A stretch of DNA of 41,022 nt, taken from positions 1 through 41,022 of the forward strand of contig JAHISK010000002.1 of assembly GCA_018818105.1 (NCBI GenBank), given 5' to 3'. The notes under the pieces were generated by a model, which saw only the letters and a program-made list of their open reading frames with translations, did no database searches and was not told where the DNA came from. The DNA is from Candidatus Omnitrophota bacterium (GTDB lineage: Bacteria > Omnitrophota > Gorgyraeia > Duberdicusellales > 4484-171). Below are positions 6,842 to 35,096 of the stretch, piece after piece (within the stretch, counting starts at the first letter, position 1; each line of letters starts with the position of its first letter). The translations under genes were made by a program, and so were the position numbers.

Positions 6842-6961
6842 ACAGAAGACAGATGCCAGAAAACAGAAGACAGAGTAAAGCTTTATTTATTAAAAGAATT
6901 TTAAAGAAGTCTATAGTCTATGGACTATGGGCTATAGTCTTTTTAGGGTCTATGGTCTTTC
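6842..6961. repeat. Heptad hairpin element H5 (ACAGAAG / GTCTATA words) overlapping the 5' end of the next CDS
   Basis: Left ACAGAAG ACAGATG CCAGAAA ACAGAAG ACAGAGT (6842-6876); right GTCTATA GTCTATG GACTATG GGCTATA GTCTTTT (6909-6943) then GTCTATG GTCTTTC (6948-6961). Confidence 0.8.
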
Positions 6962-7437
6962 TTGGCGCGGCAGGAGCGGAGGTTGTATCACTTAACGATG
7001 CATTGGCTGACCCTTCTAAGTTTGATAAAGAGATAGTTGAGGTTGAAGGTGAGGTTATTGGCGATCTCCTTAAAGATAAAGATGGGGTTTGGATAAATAT
7101 TTTGTCCCAAGGAAGTAATATCGGAATTTTTTCTCGGCGGGATAATTTAGATAAGACAATCAATCATTGGGGAAGCTATAGAGAAAACGGAGATATTGTA
7201 AAAATTAGAGGAGTTTTTTATGCTCAGTGTATCGTTCATCAGGAGATGGATATTCATGCTAATAATATATCAGTTTCAAAAAAAGGTAACGAACGGAAAG
7301 AGACTATAGCTGGCTATAAAGTTAGGTTGTCTATAATTTTTTTTATAATATGTTTGACAACCGCGGTGATTTATTTTATAAAAGTAGGATACCTGCGTAA
7401 TAAGTCGCGGAAGGGTAATACGAATTCAGACGAATAA
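6853..7437 (+). CDS. Predicted OB-fold membrane-anchored protein (signal peptide plus C-terminal TM)
   Basis: Hydrophobic N-terminus SIVYGLWAIVFLGSMVFLGAAGAEVV; central EVEGEVIGDLLKD..WINILSQGSNIGIF.. GDIVKIRGVF is OB-like; C-terminal TM LSIIFFIICLTTAVIYFI. Exact start uncertain. Confidence 0.6.
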   Translation: MPENRRQSKALFIKRILKKSIVYGLWAIVFLGSMVFLGAAGAEVVSLNDALADPSKFDKEIVEVEGEVIGDLLKDKDGVWINILSQGSNIGIFSRRDNLDKTINHWGSYRENGDIVKIRGVFYAQCIVHQEMDIHANNISVSKKGNERKETIAGYKVRLSIIFFIICLTTAVIYFIKVGYLRNKSRKGNTNSDE

Positions 7438-7448
7438 ATAAATTAAAA

Positions 7449-8510
7449 ATGAGTGAGATGGATAAAGAATATAAGATTTTAGAGGAAAATTTTGATAAAG
7501 AGTGTCAGGTAGTTTTTAGTTCGCGCCAATTAGAGGACTTAAGAGTTAAGTATTTGGGGCGTAAATCAGCCTTGGCTCAGTTATTTTCTAAGATTCCTGA
7601 GTTAACGCTTCAGGAGAAAGGTGTTTGGGGTAGGCAGCTTAATATATTAAAACAGAAGATAACCACGGTATTAGAAGAAAAAAGTAGGGCGGTTAAAGAT
7701 GAAGAAGAAACAATGGATTTAACTTTCCCATCATATGGGAAAGAAATGGGATCAACGCATGTTTTAAGTGCTGTTAGTGAAAGTATCTGTTCAATTTTGC
7801 AGCGGCTTGGGTTTGTTGTTGTTGAAGGGGGCGAAATTGAAGATGAGTGGCATAATTTTGCCGCGTTAAATATTCCTTTAGAACATCCTTCAAGAGATGT
7901 TTTTGATACGTTTTATCTGAATGTTAAAGAGAAAAATAGAGGCAAGTATTTATTAAGAAGTCATACTTCTCCGTCTCAGATAAGGGTTATGCGTGAAAGT
8001 AAGCCTCCAATGGCTGTAATTTCTCCTGGACGGGTGTATCGTCCTGATGAGGTTGATGCTACTCATTCTTTTATGTTTCATCAAATAGAGGGGTTTGCTA
8101 TCGATAAGGATATAAATTTTTCTCATTTAAAAGGGGTGTTGCTTCATTTAGTTCAGGAATTTTTTTCTTCTGACGTAAAGTTGCGGTTACGGCCGCATTT
8201 TTTTCCGTTTACCGAACCGTCGGCAGAAGTAGACATCTCCTGTATTATATGTCAAACTCCGAACTCCGAACTCCGAACTAAGAACTCTGGTAGTAAATGC
8301 AGTGTTTGTAAAGATAAAGGGTGGTTGGAAATTTTAGGGTGTGGGATGATTCATCCTAATGTGTTGGAGGCGTGCGAAATAGATTCTAAACAGTATAAGG
8401 GATTTGCTTTTGGAATGGGCGTGGAGCGAATAGCTATGCTTAAGTATGGGATAAATGATATTCGCCTTTTTTATGAAAATGACGTAAGATTTTTAGATCA
8501 ATTTACGTGA
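7449..8510 (+). CDS. pheS: Phenylalanyl-tRNA synthetase alpha subunit
   Basis: LRSHTSPSQIRVM, GRVYRPDEVDATHSFMFHQIEG, FTEPSAEVDISC, GFAFGMGVERIAMLKYGINDIR. Confidence 0.96.
   Translation: MSEMDKEYKILEENFDKECQVVFSSRQLEDLRVKYLGRKSALAQLFSKIPELTLQEKGVWGRQLNILKQKITTVLEEKSRAVKDEEETMDLTFPSYGKEMGSTHVLSAVSESICSILQRLGFVVVEGGEIEDEWHNFAALNIPLEHPSRDVFDTFYLNVKEKNRGKYLLRSHTSPSQIRVMRESKPPMAVISPGRVYRPDEVDATHSFMFHQIEGFAIDKDINFSHLKGVLLHLVQEFFSSDVKLRLRPHFFPFTEPSAEVDISCIICQTPNSELRTKNSGSKCSVCKDKGWLEILGCGMIHPNVLEACEIDSKQYKGFAFGMGVERIAMLKYGINDIRLFYENDVRFLDQFT
8255..8289. repeat. Heptad array H6 inside the pheS coding region
   Basis: AACTCCG AACTCCG AACTCCG AACTAAG AACTCTG: five contiguous phased heptads. Confidence 0.9.
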
Positions 8511-8686
8511 GAAGACCAGCGACCATCGACTAGAAAAATGATAGATTATAAGAATATTAAAGCATATCAATTTGCCGACAATCTAGGTGTAGAAATTTAT
8601 AGAGAGACTAAGGATTATTCGGGTGTTATTTACGAATTAAAATTATTTAAAAGTCTATAGTCAATGGTCTATTGTCTATGGTCTAA
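8511..8686. repeat. Heptad element H7 with arms flanking a truncated four-helix-bundle ORF
   Basis: Left GAAGACC AGCGACC ATCGACT; right AGTCTAT AGTCAAT GGTCTAT TGTCTAT GGTCTAA. Confidence 0.8.
8538..8660 (+). pseudogene. Truncated S23/four-helix-bundle (23S rRNA intervening-sequence protein family) remnant
   Basis: ATG ORF MIDYKNIKAYQFADNLGVEIYRETKDYSGVIYELKLFKSL* resembles the S23 N-terminal pattern (..IKxYQxAxxLxxEIYxxTKxF..) and lacks the rest. Confidence 0.65.
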
Positions 8687-8694
8687 TAATCATT

Positions 8695-10950: not shown

Positions 10951-11041
10951 AAATTTTAAATTTATCAGTTAACATTTTAAAATTAGCATTTAGGGAGAAT
11001 TTAAATTTAAAATGATAAATGAGAATTGATAAATGATAAAT
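10951..11041. repeat. Heptad hairpin element H8 (AAATTTA/AAATGAT words)
   Basis: AAATTTT AAATTTA TCAGTTA ACATTTT AAAATTA GCATTTA ... AAATTTA AAATGAT AAATGAG AATTGAT AAATGAT. Confidence 0.7.
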
Positions 11042-14192: not shown

Positions 14193-14260
14193 AAATTGGT
14201 ATTTGGGATTTGGGATTTGATTAGAAATTAGATCAATTAGGTTAATTAGGAATTTTGATT
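14193..14260. repeat. Heptad element H10 (ATTTGGG words, degenerate)
   Basis: AATTGGT ATTTGGG ATTTGGG ATTTGAT TAGAAAT TAGATCA ATTAGGT TAATTAG GAATTTT. Confidence 0.6.
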
Positions 14261-15030: not shown

Positions 15031-15210
15031 ATTTACAATAAACAACTCCCAAATTACAAACAAATCACAATAGACAATATAAAAAAAGAGAAGATAGATA
15101 AAGAAATATGTTAATAAATTTGGATTATTTCCGTTTTTCGTTTGTGTGTTGTATATTCGGTATTGTCTATTGTTTGTAATTTGTTTATTGTATATTGTTT
15201 ATTTTTGACA
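15031..15210. repeat. Heptad hairpin element H11 (ACAATAA/TATTGTC family)
   Basis: Left ACAATAA ACAACTC CCAAATT ACAAACA; right TATTGTC TATTGTT TGTAATT TGTTTAT TGTATAT TGTTTAT TTTTGACA. Confidence 0.88.
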
Positions 15211-19412: not shown

Positions 19413-19979
19413 ATGGAAATAATCGAAAGATTATACTTAATAGATTTTATAGTTGGAGTTCTGTGCTTGAAAGTAATTTATACCGCTGTCTCTAAGGGGG
19501 TGGTAAATGAAGCTTTTAAAGCATCAGGTATTTTTATTGGTTCTTTATTCAGTTTTCATTATTATCTTCAGGTAGCTGCGAAATTAGAGGCTAATTTACC
19601 ATTTTTAAATAAGAAATACCTTTTCTTTACTGTATTTCTTCTAATTTTTTTAGGGATATTGGCTGTCTTTTCTGTTTTGCGGAAAATAGTTGCTTTTCTT
19701 TATAAGAAAGAAGAGTTCTCAGTTAAAGAAAGATGGATTTCATTTTTCATCGGTGGATTAAGATTTGTTTTATTAGCAAGCGTAATTTTGTTTTTTTTAC
19801 ATCTGTATTCTTTAAACGAAAAATATTACGGTAAGAGCGTATCCTATCGGTTACTTAAGAAAGTTGCTCCCAAGGTATATTTGGTGTCATTGGATTTTTT
19901 GAATTTTTATAAAATAGATACACAAAAAGAGCTTAATAAAGAAGTAAAAAAATATTATGAAAGCGAAGATACAAAATAA
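19413..19979 (+). CDS. cvpA: CvpA family membrane protein
   Basis: Four-TM pattern with LIDFIVGVLCLKVIYTAVSKGVVNEAFKASGIFIGSLFSFHYY. Confidence 0.75.
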   Translation: MEIIERLYLIDFIVGVLCLKVIYTAVSKGVVNEAFKASGIFIGSLFSFHYYLQVAAKLEANLPFLNKKYLFFTVFLLIFLGILAVFSVLRKIVAFLYKKEEFSVKERWISFFIGGLRFVLLASVILFFLHLYSLNEKYYGKSVSYRLLKKVAPKVYLVSLDFLNFYKIDTQKELNKEVKKYYESEDTK

Positions 19980-20135
19980 ACAATATACAATAAACAAATG
20001 GAAAAAATAGATAAAGAAATATGTTGATAAATATAATTGATAAATTTGGATATTCTCAATATCGTTTGTGTATTGTATATTTGGGATTGTAAATTATTTG
20101 TAATTTGTTTATTGTCTATTTGTTTATTTTTGACA
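19971..20135. repeat. Heptad hairpin element H12 (ACAATAA/TATTGTC family)
   Basis: AAAATAAACAATATACAATAAACAAATGG ... TTTGTAATTTGTTTATTGTCTATTTGTTTATTTTTGACA; shares loop text ATAGATAAAGAAATATGTT with H11. Confidence 0.85.
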
Positions 20136-30230: not shown

Positions 30231-30382
30231 AAATTCCAAATTACAAGCATCAAATAACAAATAAGCTCCAAATTCCAATTTTTAAATGTTCGAAATATCG
30301 ATGTTTTCTATATTGTTTGGAATTTCGATCATTGGATATTGGGATTTATTTGTAATTTGGAAATTGTTATTTGGAATTTATA
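30231..30382. repeat. Heptad hairpin element H13 (AAATTCC words)
   Basis: AAATTCC AAATTAC AAGCATC AAATAAC AAATAAG ... TATTGGG ATTTATT TGTAATT TGGAAAT TGTTATT TGGAATT. Confidence 0.85.
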
Positions 30383-30392
30383 AGGTTATGGT

Positions 30393-31866: not shown

Positions 31867-32013
31867 ACAATAAGCAACTTCCAAATAACAATAAACAAAT
31901 GAGGAAAAAAGATAAAAAGATTTATAAATTCATAATATTCTCGGTAGTATATTGTATATTCGGTATTGTCTATTGTTTGTAATTTGTTTATTGTCTATTG
32001 TTTATTTTTGACA
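31867..32013. repeat. Heptad hairpin element H14 (ACAATAA/TATTGTC family)
   Basis: ACAATAA GCAACTT CCAAATA ACAATAA ACAAATG ... CGGTATTGTCTATTGTTTGTAATTTGTTTATTGTCTATTGTTTATTTTTGACA; right end near-identical to H11. Confidence 0.88.
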
Positions 32014-32726: not shown

Positions 32727-33047
32727 ATGGGTAAAGAAAAGTTAATTACTACTCGAGATGTTTCTTTGATTTTAGGTCTTTCGGAAAAAGATGTTATTGA
32801 TTTAGCTAACGCTAATCTTTTGCCTCACTTTAAAGTCGGAGGTGAGTTTTTAAGATTCAAGAGAGAAGATGTAGTTAAAGTAAAGAAGCGCGTTAAGAAA
32901 AAGTATAATCTGCCTACTGGAGGCGGTCGCCGCGGGGTTGGATGGGTGAAGGAGTTTTTCTATTTTAATGATTTTTATATTGTGTGTTCTGCTATTATTG
33001 TAGTATTGCTTTGGGTTATTTTTAAGGATTTTCGTTCTTCAAATTGA
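32727..33047 (+). CDS. Excisionase/MerR-like HTH protein with C-terminal transmembrane helix
   Basis: LITTRDVSLILGLSEKDVIDLANANLLPHFKVGGEFLRFKREDVVKV (HTH_17-like) plus YIVCSAIIVVLLWVIF TM. Confidence 0.8.
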   Translation: MGKEKLITTRDVSLILGLSEKDVIDLANANLLPHFKVGGEFLRFKREDVVKVKKRVKKKYNLPTGGGRRGVGWVKEFFYFNDFYIVCSAIIVVLLWVIFKDFRSSN

Positions 33048-33712
33048 TGAAAGAAAAAGGGTTTATCGACCTTGGATTTGCTAAGCTTGATATAGATAGA
33101 GAAAACCGCAGAGGGCTTCCTGAAATAGTTTATGCTTCTGGAAAAACTATTTCGCAGCTAAAAAAAATCGTTGAAGAATTTCGAGGTCATACCGATTTGG
33201 TTTTTATCTCTCGTCTGTTGCCCAATCAGTATAAAACTTTAAAAAAAGAAATTCCTTCTTTAAAATATTTTTCTCAGGCAAAGATTGCCTTTTGCGGCAA
33301 GGAGAGAAAGCAAAAGCAAGGAAATGTCTTAGTGCTTACAGCAGGTACTTCTGATGTAAATGTAGCGGAAGAAGCTGCTGTTTTTTTAGAGCTAACCGGT
33401 AATAATGTAGAGAGAGTATACGATGTAGGTGTCGCCGGGATACATCGGTTAGATTTTTTTAAAAAGAAAATTGTTTCGGCTAAAGTGATTATTGTTGTTG
33501 CCGGGATGGAAGCGGCGTTAGCCAGTATAGTTTCAGGTTTGGTCGCTGTTCCAGTAATTGGTGTGCCTACAAGCGTGGGGTATGGCGCTTCATTTAAAGG
33601 GGTTGCGGCATTGTTAGGGATGATGAACAGTTGTTCTCCGGGAATTACGGTTGTAAATATCGATAATGGGTTAGGCGCGGGATATTTCGCGCATATGATT
33701 AATAAGTGGTAA
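33044..33712 (+). CDS. larB: Nickel pincer cofactor biosynthesis protein LarB (AIR carboxylase-like)
   Basis: VLTAGTSDVNVAEEAAVFLELTGNNVERVYDVGVAGIHRL; VAGMEAALASIVSGLVAVPVIGVPTSVGYG. Confidence 0.92.
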   Translation: MMKEKGFIDLGFAKLDIDRENRRGLPEIVYASGKTISQLKKIVEEFRGHTDLVFISRLLPNQYKTLKKEIPSLKYFSQAKIAFCGKERKQKQGNVLVLTAGTSDVNVAEEAAVFLELTGNNVERVYDVGVAGIHRLDFFKKKIVSAKVIIVVAGMEAALASIVSGLVAVPVIGVPTSVGYGASFKGVAALLGMMNSCSPGITVVNIDNGLGAGYFAHMINKW

Positions 33713-33833
33713 GTGGTAAGTAGTAAGTGGTAAGTGGTAAGTAGTAAGTGGTAAGTAGTAAGTGATAAGGATTAAGAATTAAGTGAGGAATAAATGATAT
33801 TCTTCTTAATCCTTACAACTTAATCCTATACAA
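33704..33833. repeat. Heptad hairpin element H15 (AAGTGGT words), 12 contiguous phased heptads
   Basis: AAGTGGT x2 AAGTAGT AAGTGGT x2 AAGTAGT AAGTGGT AAGTAGT AAGTGAT AAGGATT AAGAATT AAGTGAG; right arm TTAATCC TTACAAC TTAATCC. Confidence 0.95.
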
Positions 33834-34976: not shown

Positions 34977-35096
34977 CAGAAGTAAGAAGTAAGAAGTAAG
35001 AAGTAAGGATTAAGAGGGAAACGAAGAGAAAGGAATTTTTATAGAAGATTCGGAATCTATATTTTTTCTTAATCCTTACCACTTATTTCTATAATA
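34977..35096. repeat. Heptad hairpin element H16 (AAGAAGT words) upstream of tRNA-Met
   Basis: CAGAAGT AAGAAGT AAGAAGT AAGAAGT AAGGATT AAGAGGG; apex AGATTCGGAATCT; right TTAATCC TTACCAC TTATTTC TATAATA. Confidence 0.9.

Follow-up and report, generated by a model that had tools for sequence, protein, structure and literature searches.

A heptanucleotide array within pheS of an Omnitrophota bacterium and its probable source in dispersed repeats

Five tandem heptanucleotides lie within pheS, the gene for the alpha subunit of phenylalanine-tRNA ligase, in a metagenome-assembled genome (G000; 2.03 Mb in 157 contigs) whose nearest named relatives are Omnitrophota. How did such an array come to lie, in frame, within an essential gene? 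The gene (7449-8510, forward strand) belongs to a window of 41,022 nucleotides, the whole stretch of DNA that was analysed. It encodes an intact protein of 353 residues that matches the Pfam family tRNA-synt_2d (PF01409; E 6e-98) and the solved structure 4p71 (PDB; E 1e-96).

The array and the loop that holds it

The array consists of three copies of AACTCCG followed by AACTAAG and AACTCTG (8255-8289, forward strand). Its position between paired CxxC motifs, first noticed in a sequence-only reading of the DNA, was confirmed by the sequence, by TRF (period 7, 4.7 copies) and by an alignment of 32 PheS sequences; the array was also compared with shuffled sequence. The first motif (C265 and C268; 8241-8252) and the second (C284 and C287; 8298-8309) are invariant in the alignment, and the stretch between them (residues 269-283; 8253-8297, like the motifs on the forward strand) is a hypervariable hairpin loop. 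As 7 is coprime with 3, the array specifies an identical cycle of seven residues in whichever frame it is read, here NSELRT(P/K), located between C268 and C284. The sequence-only reading had proposed that the loop be modelled, and the AF2 model of PheS places residues 272-280 in a low-confidence loop (pLDDT <50) flanked by strands 258-264 and 292-300.

The spacing between the CxxC pairs is typically short, as that reading had supposed. In 58 of 79 PheS loci examined, mostly from Omnitrophota, the segment is a run of four residues, as a rule KGKG; the remaining 21 have segments of 6-31 residues with unrelated peptides. It is absent from the solved PheS structures 4p71 and 2rhq (Pseudomonas and Staphylococcus). 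Thus, relatives both lack the long segment and vary in it, the two outcomes that had been asked about, and no conservation of the peptide in distant relatives through other codons, which would have spoken against an insertion, was seen. The present loop has 15 residues compared to four in most relatives, a net gain of 33 nt and a multiple of three. The earlier argument that extra bases must have restored the frame of a 35-nt array therefore holds for the net change of the loop and not for the array, which needs no whole number of codons.

Repeats are found in this loop in several lineages. A significant 7-nt periodicity is present in the pheS loops of L066 (ACGCTTC), L068 (AGACCAC/AGACCAA), L076 (CAAACCG) and L133 (AAGGGTT); in the loop of L139 the period is 8 nt (GTCACCAG). 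An additional octad array lies outside the loop in the pheS genes of L139 and L133. PheS of the window species is ~72% identical to that of its nearest relatives, and the clean case of presence and absence comes instead from two species that share a genus, G025 and G032. Between their loops the difference is a heptad array of exactly 36 nt, in frame, which G032 is without. The comparisons of L110 with L124 and of L114 with L122 gave no convincing heptad indels. Two insertions of another kind, relative to relatives (L110:2656-3430 and L122:2603-3022), encode GLIDGDG-type peptides like those of LAGLIDADG homing endonucleases, and the one in L110 lies apparently inside a tRNA-like sequence.

In sum, the variable length of the loop, the heptads in several lineages, the G025/G032 indel and the low confidence of the AF2 model mark the pheS loop as a repeatedly used, tolerant insertion point. 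This supports the proposal that an essential gene took up an in-frame insertion where a loop tolerates it.

Period-7 arrays across the genome

The array is not an isolated oddity of pheS. In 718 kb of G000 there are 117 arrays of period 7, six of period 6 and four of period 8, and an order-4 Markov shuffle of the sequence leaves one of period 7, which excludes a chance origin. The sample is not fully random, being made of separate stretches chosen in part for matches to AACTCCG or to S23, and the contrast between periods is independent of this bias. The units also recur. For 59 of 93 independent arrays the exact unit was found at another locus, compared to a mean of 15.5 and a maximum of 24 when bases were shuffled within units. 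AACTCCG dimers number 36 in G000 against four for the reversed pattern, AGACCAA occurs 108 times in G025 against 25 for its reversed pattern, and ACGCTTC arrays with at most one mismatch are present at several sites of G019. The heptads of the pheS loops in G000, G019 and G025 are therefore each a recurring unit of their own genome. Units of 7 and of 8 nt both occur in G025, and the notion that each genome keeps to one unit length was therefore abandoned.

The window itself holds more period-7 arrays, mostly intergenic and with different unit sequences (678-709, 11010-11041, 14196-14219, 15149-15203, 19975-19997, 20094-20129, 30348-30383, 31947-32006 and 34978-35015). The longest is TAAGTGG, repeated 9.6 times at the end of an ORF (33703-33769; ORF 33044-33712). 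Upstream of pheS, an array of the GTCTATG family (6908-6940) lies near the N terminus of ORF 6853-7437 and encodes KSIVYGLWAIV within a probable membrane leader.

Only 16 of the 117 arrays lie wholly within called ORFs, although ~89% of the 718 kb is coding by a simple ORF call. Besides pheS, the genes interrupted in G000 include those for ValRS (three arrays), CarB, MiaB, PyrK and PurQ. When these were compared with PDB homologues, the one comparison made outside pheS, the arrays coincided with insertions relative to the solved proteins, clearly in ValRS, CarB and PurQ; for MiaB and PyrK the gaps were smaller. The AACTCCG unit of pheS recurs in one ValRS array, which gives the peptide SELRTPNSEL. 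The ValRS gene at L161:11603-14329 carries three separate in-frame heptad arrays of three different units. At L165:6383-9631, an ORF of 1082 residues, which is either a fusion or an assembly oddity, combines a coiled coil in its N-terminal portion with a C-terminal portion that resembles EF-G, and a heptad array lies near the junction.

About 69% of random heptads are stop-free upon tandem repetition. As 7 and 8 are both coprime with 3, an array free of stops in one frame is free of them in every frame, so that coding sequence can accommodate such arrays unusually well.

Inverted arrays and S23 genes

Outside genes the arrays mostly come in pairs. An inverted partner, scored as a match of at least 18/24 within 500 bp, was present for 33 of 55 intergenic arrays (2 in a control with swapped neighbourhoods), for 18 of 46 at gene edges (control 3) and for 2 of 16 within genes (control 2). 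This relaxed test replaced a stricter criterion, whose 17 of 117 was an underestimate. By these rates, most arrays between genes belong to hairpins, and those within genes are solo. The pheS array conforms: its best inverted match within 500 bp is 13/24, i.e., at chance level, and it has no unusual folding (MFE -7.3 against a shuffled mean of -13.2). By comparison, two hairpins of a family with the unit AGCTNTC, one in G032 and one at the G025 locus L068, fold with -34 and -37 kcal/mol, and their shuffles with about -12. In G032, this family was read in 14 copies, with arms of ~32 nt and spacers of ~10-20 nt. One copy of this family is present in G025 and missing in G032, where a short palindrome, AGCTCATGAGCT, remains; at this empty site, the single one read, no clear target-site duplication was found.

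In other cases a gene occupies the place of the spacer. Inverted heptad or octad arrays bound S23/IVP genes, which encode four-helix bundles (PF05635), in 61 of 72 loci drawn from Omnitrophota, Cyanobacteriota, Azospirillum and Gemmatirosa. Heptads are on both flanks in 54 and octads in seven more, and periods 5, 6, 9, 10 and 11 together account for two. These loci are mostly best-scoring matches, and the plasmid set comes from one query and includes some related plasmids (L305/L306 and L311/L312). The median arm length is ~4.7-5 units. In G000, all four PF05635 genes lie between inverted arrays, and inverted heptad or octad flanks are likewise found at S23 genes of cyanobacterial plasmids, Azospirillum and Gemmatirosa. 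To our knowledge, S23/IVP proteins are widespread and have no assigned function.

In Omnitrophota, a period-7 score of at least 15/21 was reached in 37 of 48 S23 flanks, compared to seven of 48 stretches ~1 kb away and two of 54 pheS flanks. The inverted matches are specific to the locus: the two flanks of an Omnitrophota S23 gene match each other in inverted orientation (at least 20/28) in 87.5% of comparisons within a locus and 8% between loci, and among 18 S23 loci with usable flanks from G025, G005 and G032 the corresponding values are 72% and 4%.

A decayed element of this type (8513-8689) is situated between pheS and pheT. Its left arm (AGACCAG, CGACCAT and CGACTAG; 8513-8533, forward strand) begins just after the pheS stop codon. 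A truncated S23-like ORF remnant follows (8538-8660, forward strand); the match is weak, but it is the best one to the S23 profile in the six-frame window (hmmsearch, E 0.008), and Pfam found nothing there. The right arm, of unit GTCTATN, is inverted (8653-8689, reverse strand; TRF 8653-8685) and complements the GACCATN/GACTATN family of the left arm.

The search for an empty site of an S23 element between G008 and G027 found no homologous region. At an intergenic site that follows a lysS-like gene, an S23 element with arms of the ACAGAGG type is present in G025 (L269:640-1135), and the corresponding G032 site (C126) has other hairpins. The G032 site was rejected as a clean empty site, as G032 is without the S23 gene there and has other repeat hairpins in its place; what is seen is apparently turnover at one site. 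In two plasmids (L309 and L314, of Pseudanabaena and Anabaena), S23 elements lie between cas6 and cas4 of CRISPR loci.

Origin of the array and known systems

We consider it probable that the pheS heptads are a dispersed repeat, gained in frame by this lineage in particular at the tip of the Cys4 beta-hairpin, and that their source is the heptad and octad arrays found genome-wide. The best reading of the array is as a relic or offshoot of this system, solo and in frame; the tie of the system to S23/IVP genes is beyond the reach of a sequence-only view. The word "element" used earlier stands in so far as an insertion is supported; the in-gene copies are solo arrays and not complete hairpins.

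Between genes, most arrays are paired as inverted arms of a hairpin, which encloses either a short spacer, as in a MITE, or a gene for the S23/IVP four-helix bundle; within genes a single arm is present. In the mechanism that we propose, arrays would reach new sites, and an arm within a gene would persist if its heptad is stop-free on that strand, the net change in length is a multiple of three and the loop is disordered. Copy number is certainly subject to slippage, as published for Coxiella, and slippage may have contributed to the arrays here. We infer that arms pass from site to site, by movement or by copying, and that S23 has a part in it. Since the pheS array has neither an inverted partner nor unusual folding, we likewise infer its derivation from a hairpin or S23 element rather than from local slippage.

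Local slippage in its strict form, in which an A-rich tolerant loop expanded in 7-nt steps with no donor element, appears unlikely. It draws on the proposal of polymerase slippage for heptanucleotides, which in many bacteria are more common than any other long simple repeat (Mrazek, 2007, as cited in PMC4679880), on the variation of the Coxiella heptamer copy number among strains (PMC4990558) and on the variable loop length even where heptads are not visible. But it would not predict that units are found again elsewhere in their genome far more often than shuffling leads one to expect, or that two different aminoacyl-tRNA synthetases have AACTCCG in common, and it leaves the inverted pairing of intergenic arrays unexplained. 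There is very little to recommend the view that the array is a selected feature, be it a binding site for RNA or protein, the target of a regulator or a means of tuning PheRS. The Cys4 motif is retained on both sides of the array, and the heptad repeats of Beggiatoaceae (PMC4679880) and of Geobacter metallireducens (PMC2700814) have been interpreted as sites of regulation, but the unit, the peptide and the length differ from genus to genus, G032 does without the array and the peptide is predicted to be disordered. An assembly or binning artefact is scarcely credible: repeats are prone to mis-assembly and 157 contigs came from a metagenome, but the ORF is intact across the array, independent assemblies, made in several projects, have analogous arrays in this loop, and arrays are also present in finished plasmids.

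The heptad repeats and the bracketing of S23, favored above as the background of the pheS array, suggest a little-recognised type of mobile DNA. It is conceivable, if doubtful, that the heptad and octad arrays of many phyla all belong to a single class of mobile element, either as its ends or as relics that stand alone, that S23/IVP is its sole gene and that an S23 ring recognises the arms. S23/PF05635 is related to Avd of DGRs and forms a five-fold ring (as cited in PMC10053308). Under that joint reading, one 7-8-nt unit would be engaged per S23 protomer, which may be compared with the median of ~5 units per arm; the proposed ring would act on these units as the TRAP ring works on tandem triplets. 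If true, this reading would account for the length of the unit, for the freedom of its sequence and for in-frame solo arms such as that of pheS.

The bracketing, seen in four phyla, ties together the puzzles of heptanucleotide repeats and of S23, and makes both testable. The pheS case indicates that arrays can enter an essential enzyme in frame without breaking it, turning repeat DNA into new loop sequence. Where a protein predicted from an uncultured genome contains an odd repetitive insertion, this may often be an array of the present kind and not an error.

Several known systems share features with the arrays described here. MITE and REP elements are also short dispersed hairpins at many intergenic sites, but the arms here consist of degenerate units of 7 or 8 nt, and every locus has a unit of its own. 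Terminal inverted repeats with dispersed copies, which define MITEs, characterize the AGCTNTC hairpins of G032 and not the pheS array. Dispersed tandem heptanucleotides, mostly intergenic and sometimes in genes, are known as STRR in cyanobacteria, TAACTGA in Beggiatoaceae, including ORFs (PMC4679880), GGGAATC in Xanthomonas (PMC4692102) and GGGACCG in Geobacter metallireducens, within and between genes (PMC2700814). The pheS array resembles STRR in its tandem 7-nt units and in the dispersal of the same unit in the genome. The accessible portions of these reports mention neither a link to S23 nor a presence/absence indel in an essential gene.

Mobile repeats in frame in essential genes have a precedent in the Rickettsia palindromic elements (RPEs), which lie in unrelated housekeeping genes at positions compatible with function (Ogata, 2000, as reviewed in PMC10969869). 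The pheS array shares with them in-frame insertion in unrelated protein genes and lacks their palindromic stem; RPEs are palindromes of ~150 bp, whereas the in-gene copies here are single-direction heptad arrays of ~28-45 nt. The pheS array is thus a new instance of in-gene heptad repeats, and the wider S23-heptad anatomy would be the part to surprise a specialist. We found no statement of a general link between S23 genes and inverted heptad or octad arrays in the open-access literature, a provisional result, and the one report there of S23 next to heptads concerns the intervening sequence (IVS) in the 23S rRNA of Coxiella burnetii. In that IVS the S23 ORF lies between terminal inverted repeats, and heptamers (GACAGAT), tandem and of strain-variable copy number, are contained in the 5′ arm upstream of it (PMC4990558). 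The elements described here differ in that they are mostly between protein genes and not in rRNA, and many are without S23; the pheS copy, with neither a PF05635 ORF nor terminal inverted repeats, is a solo arm.
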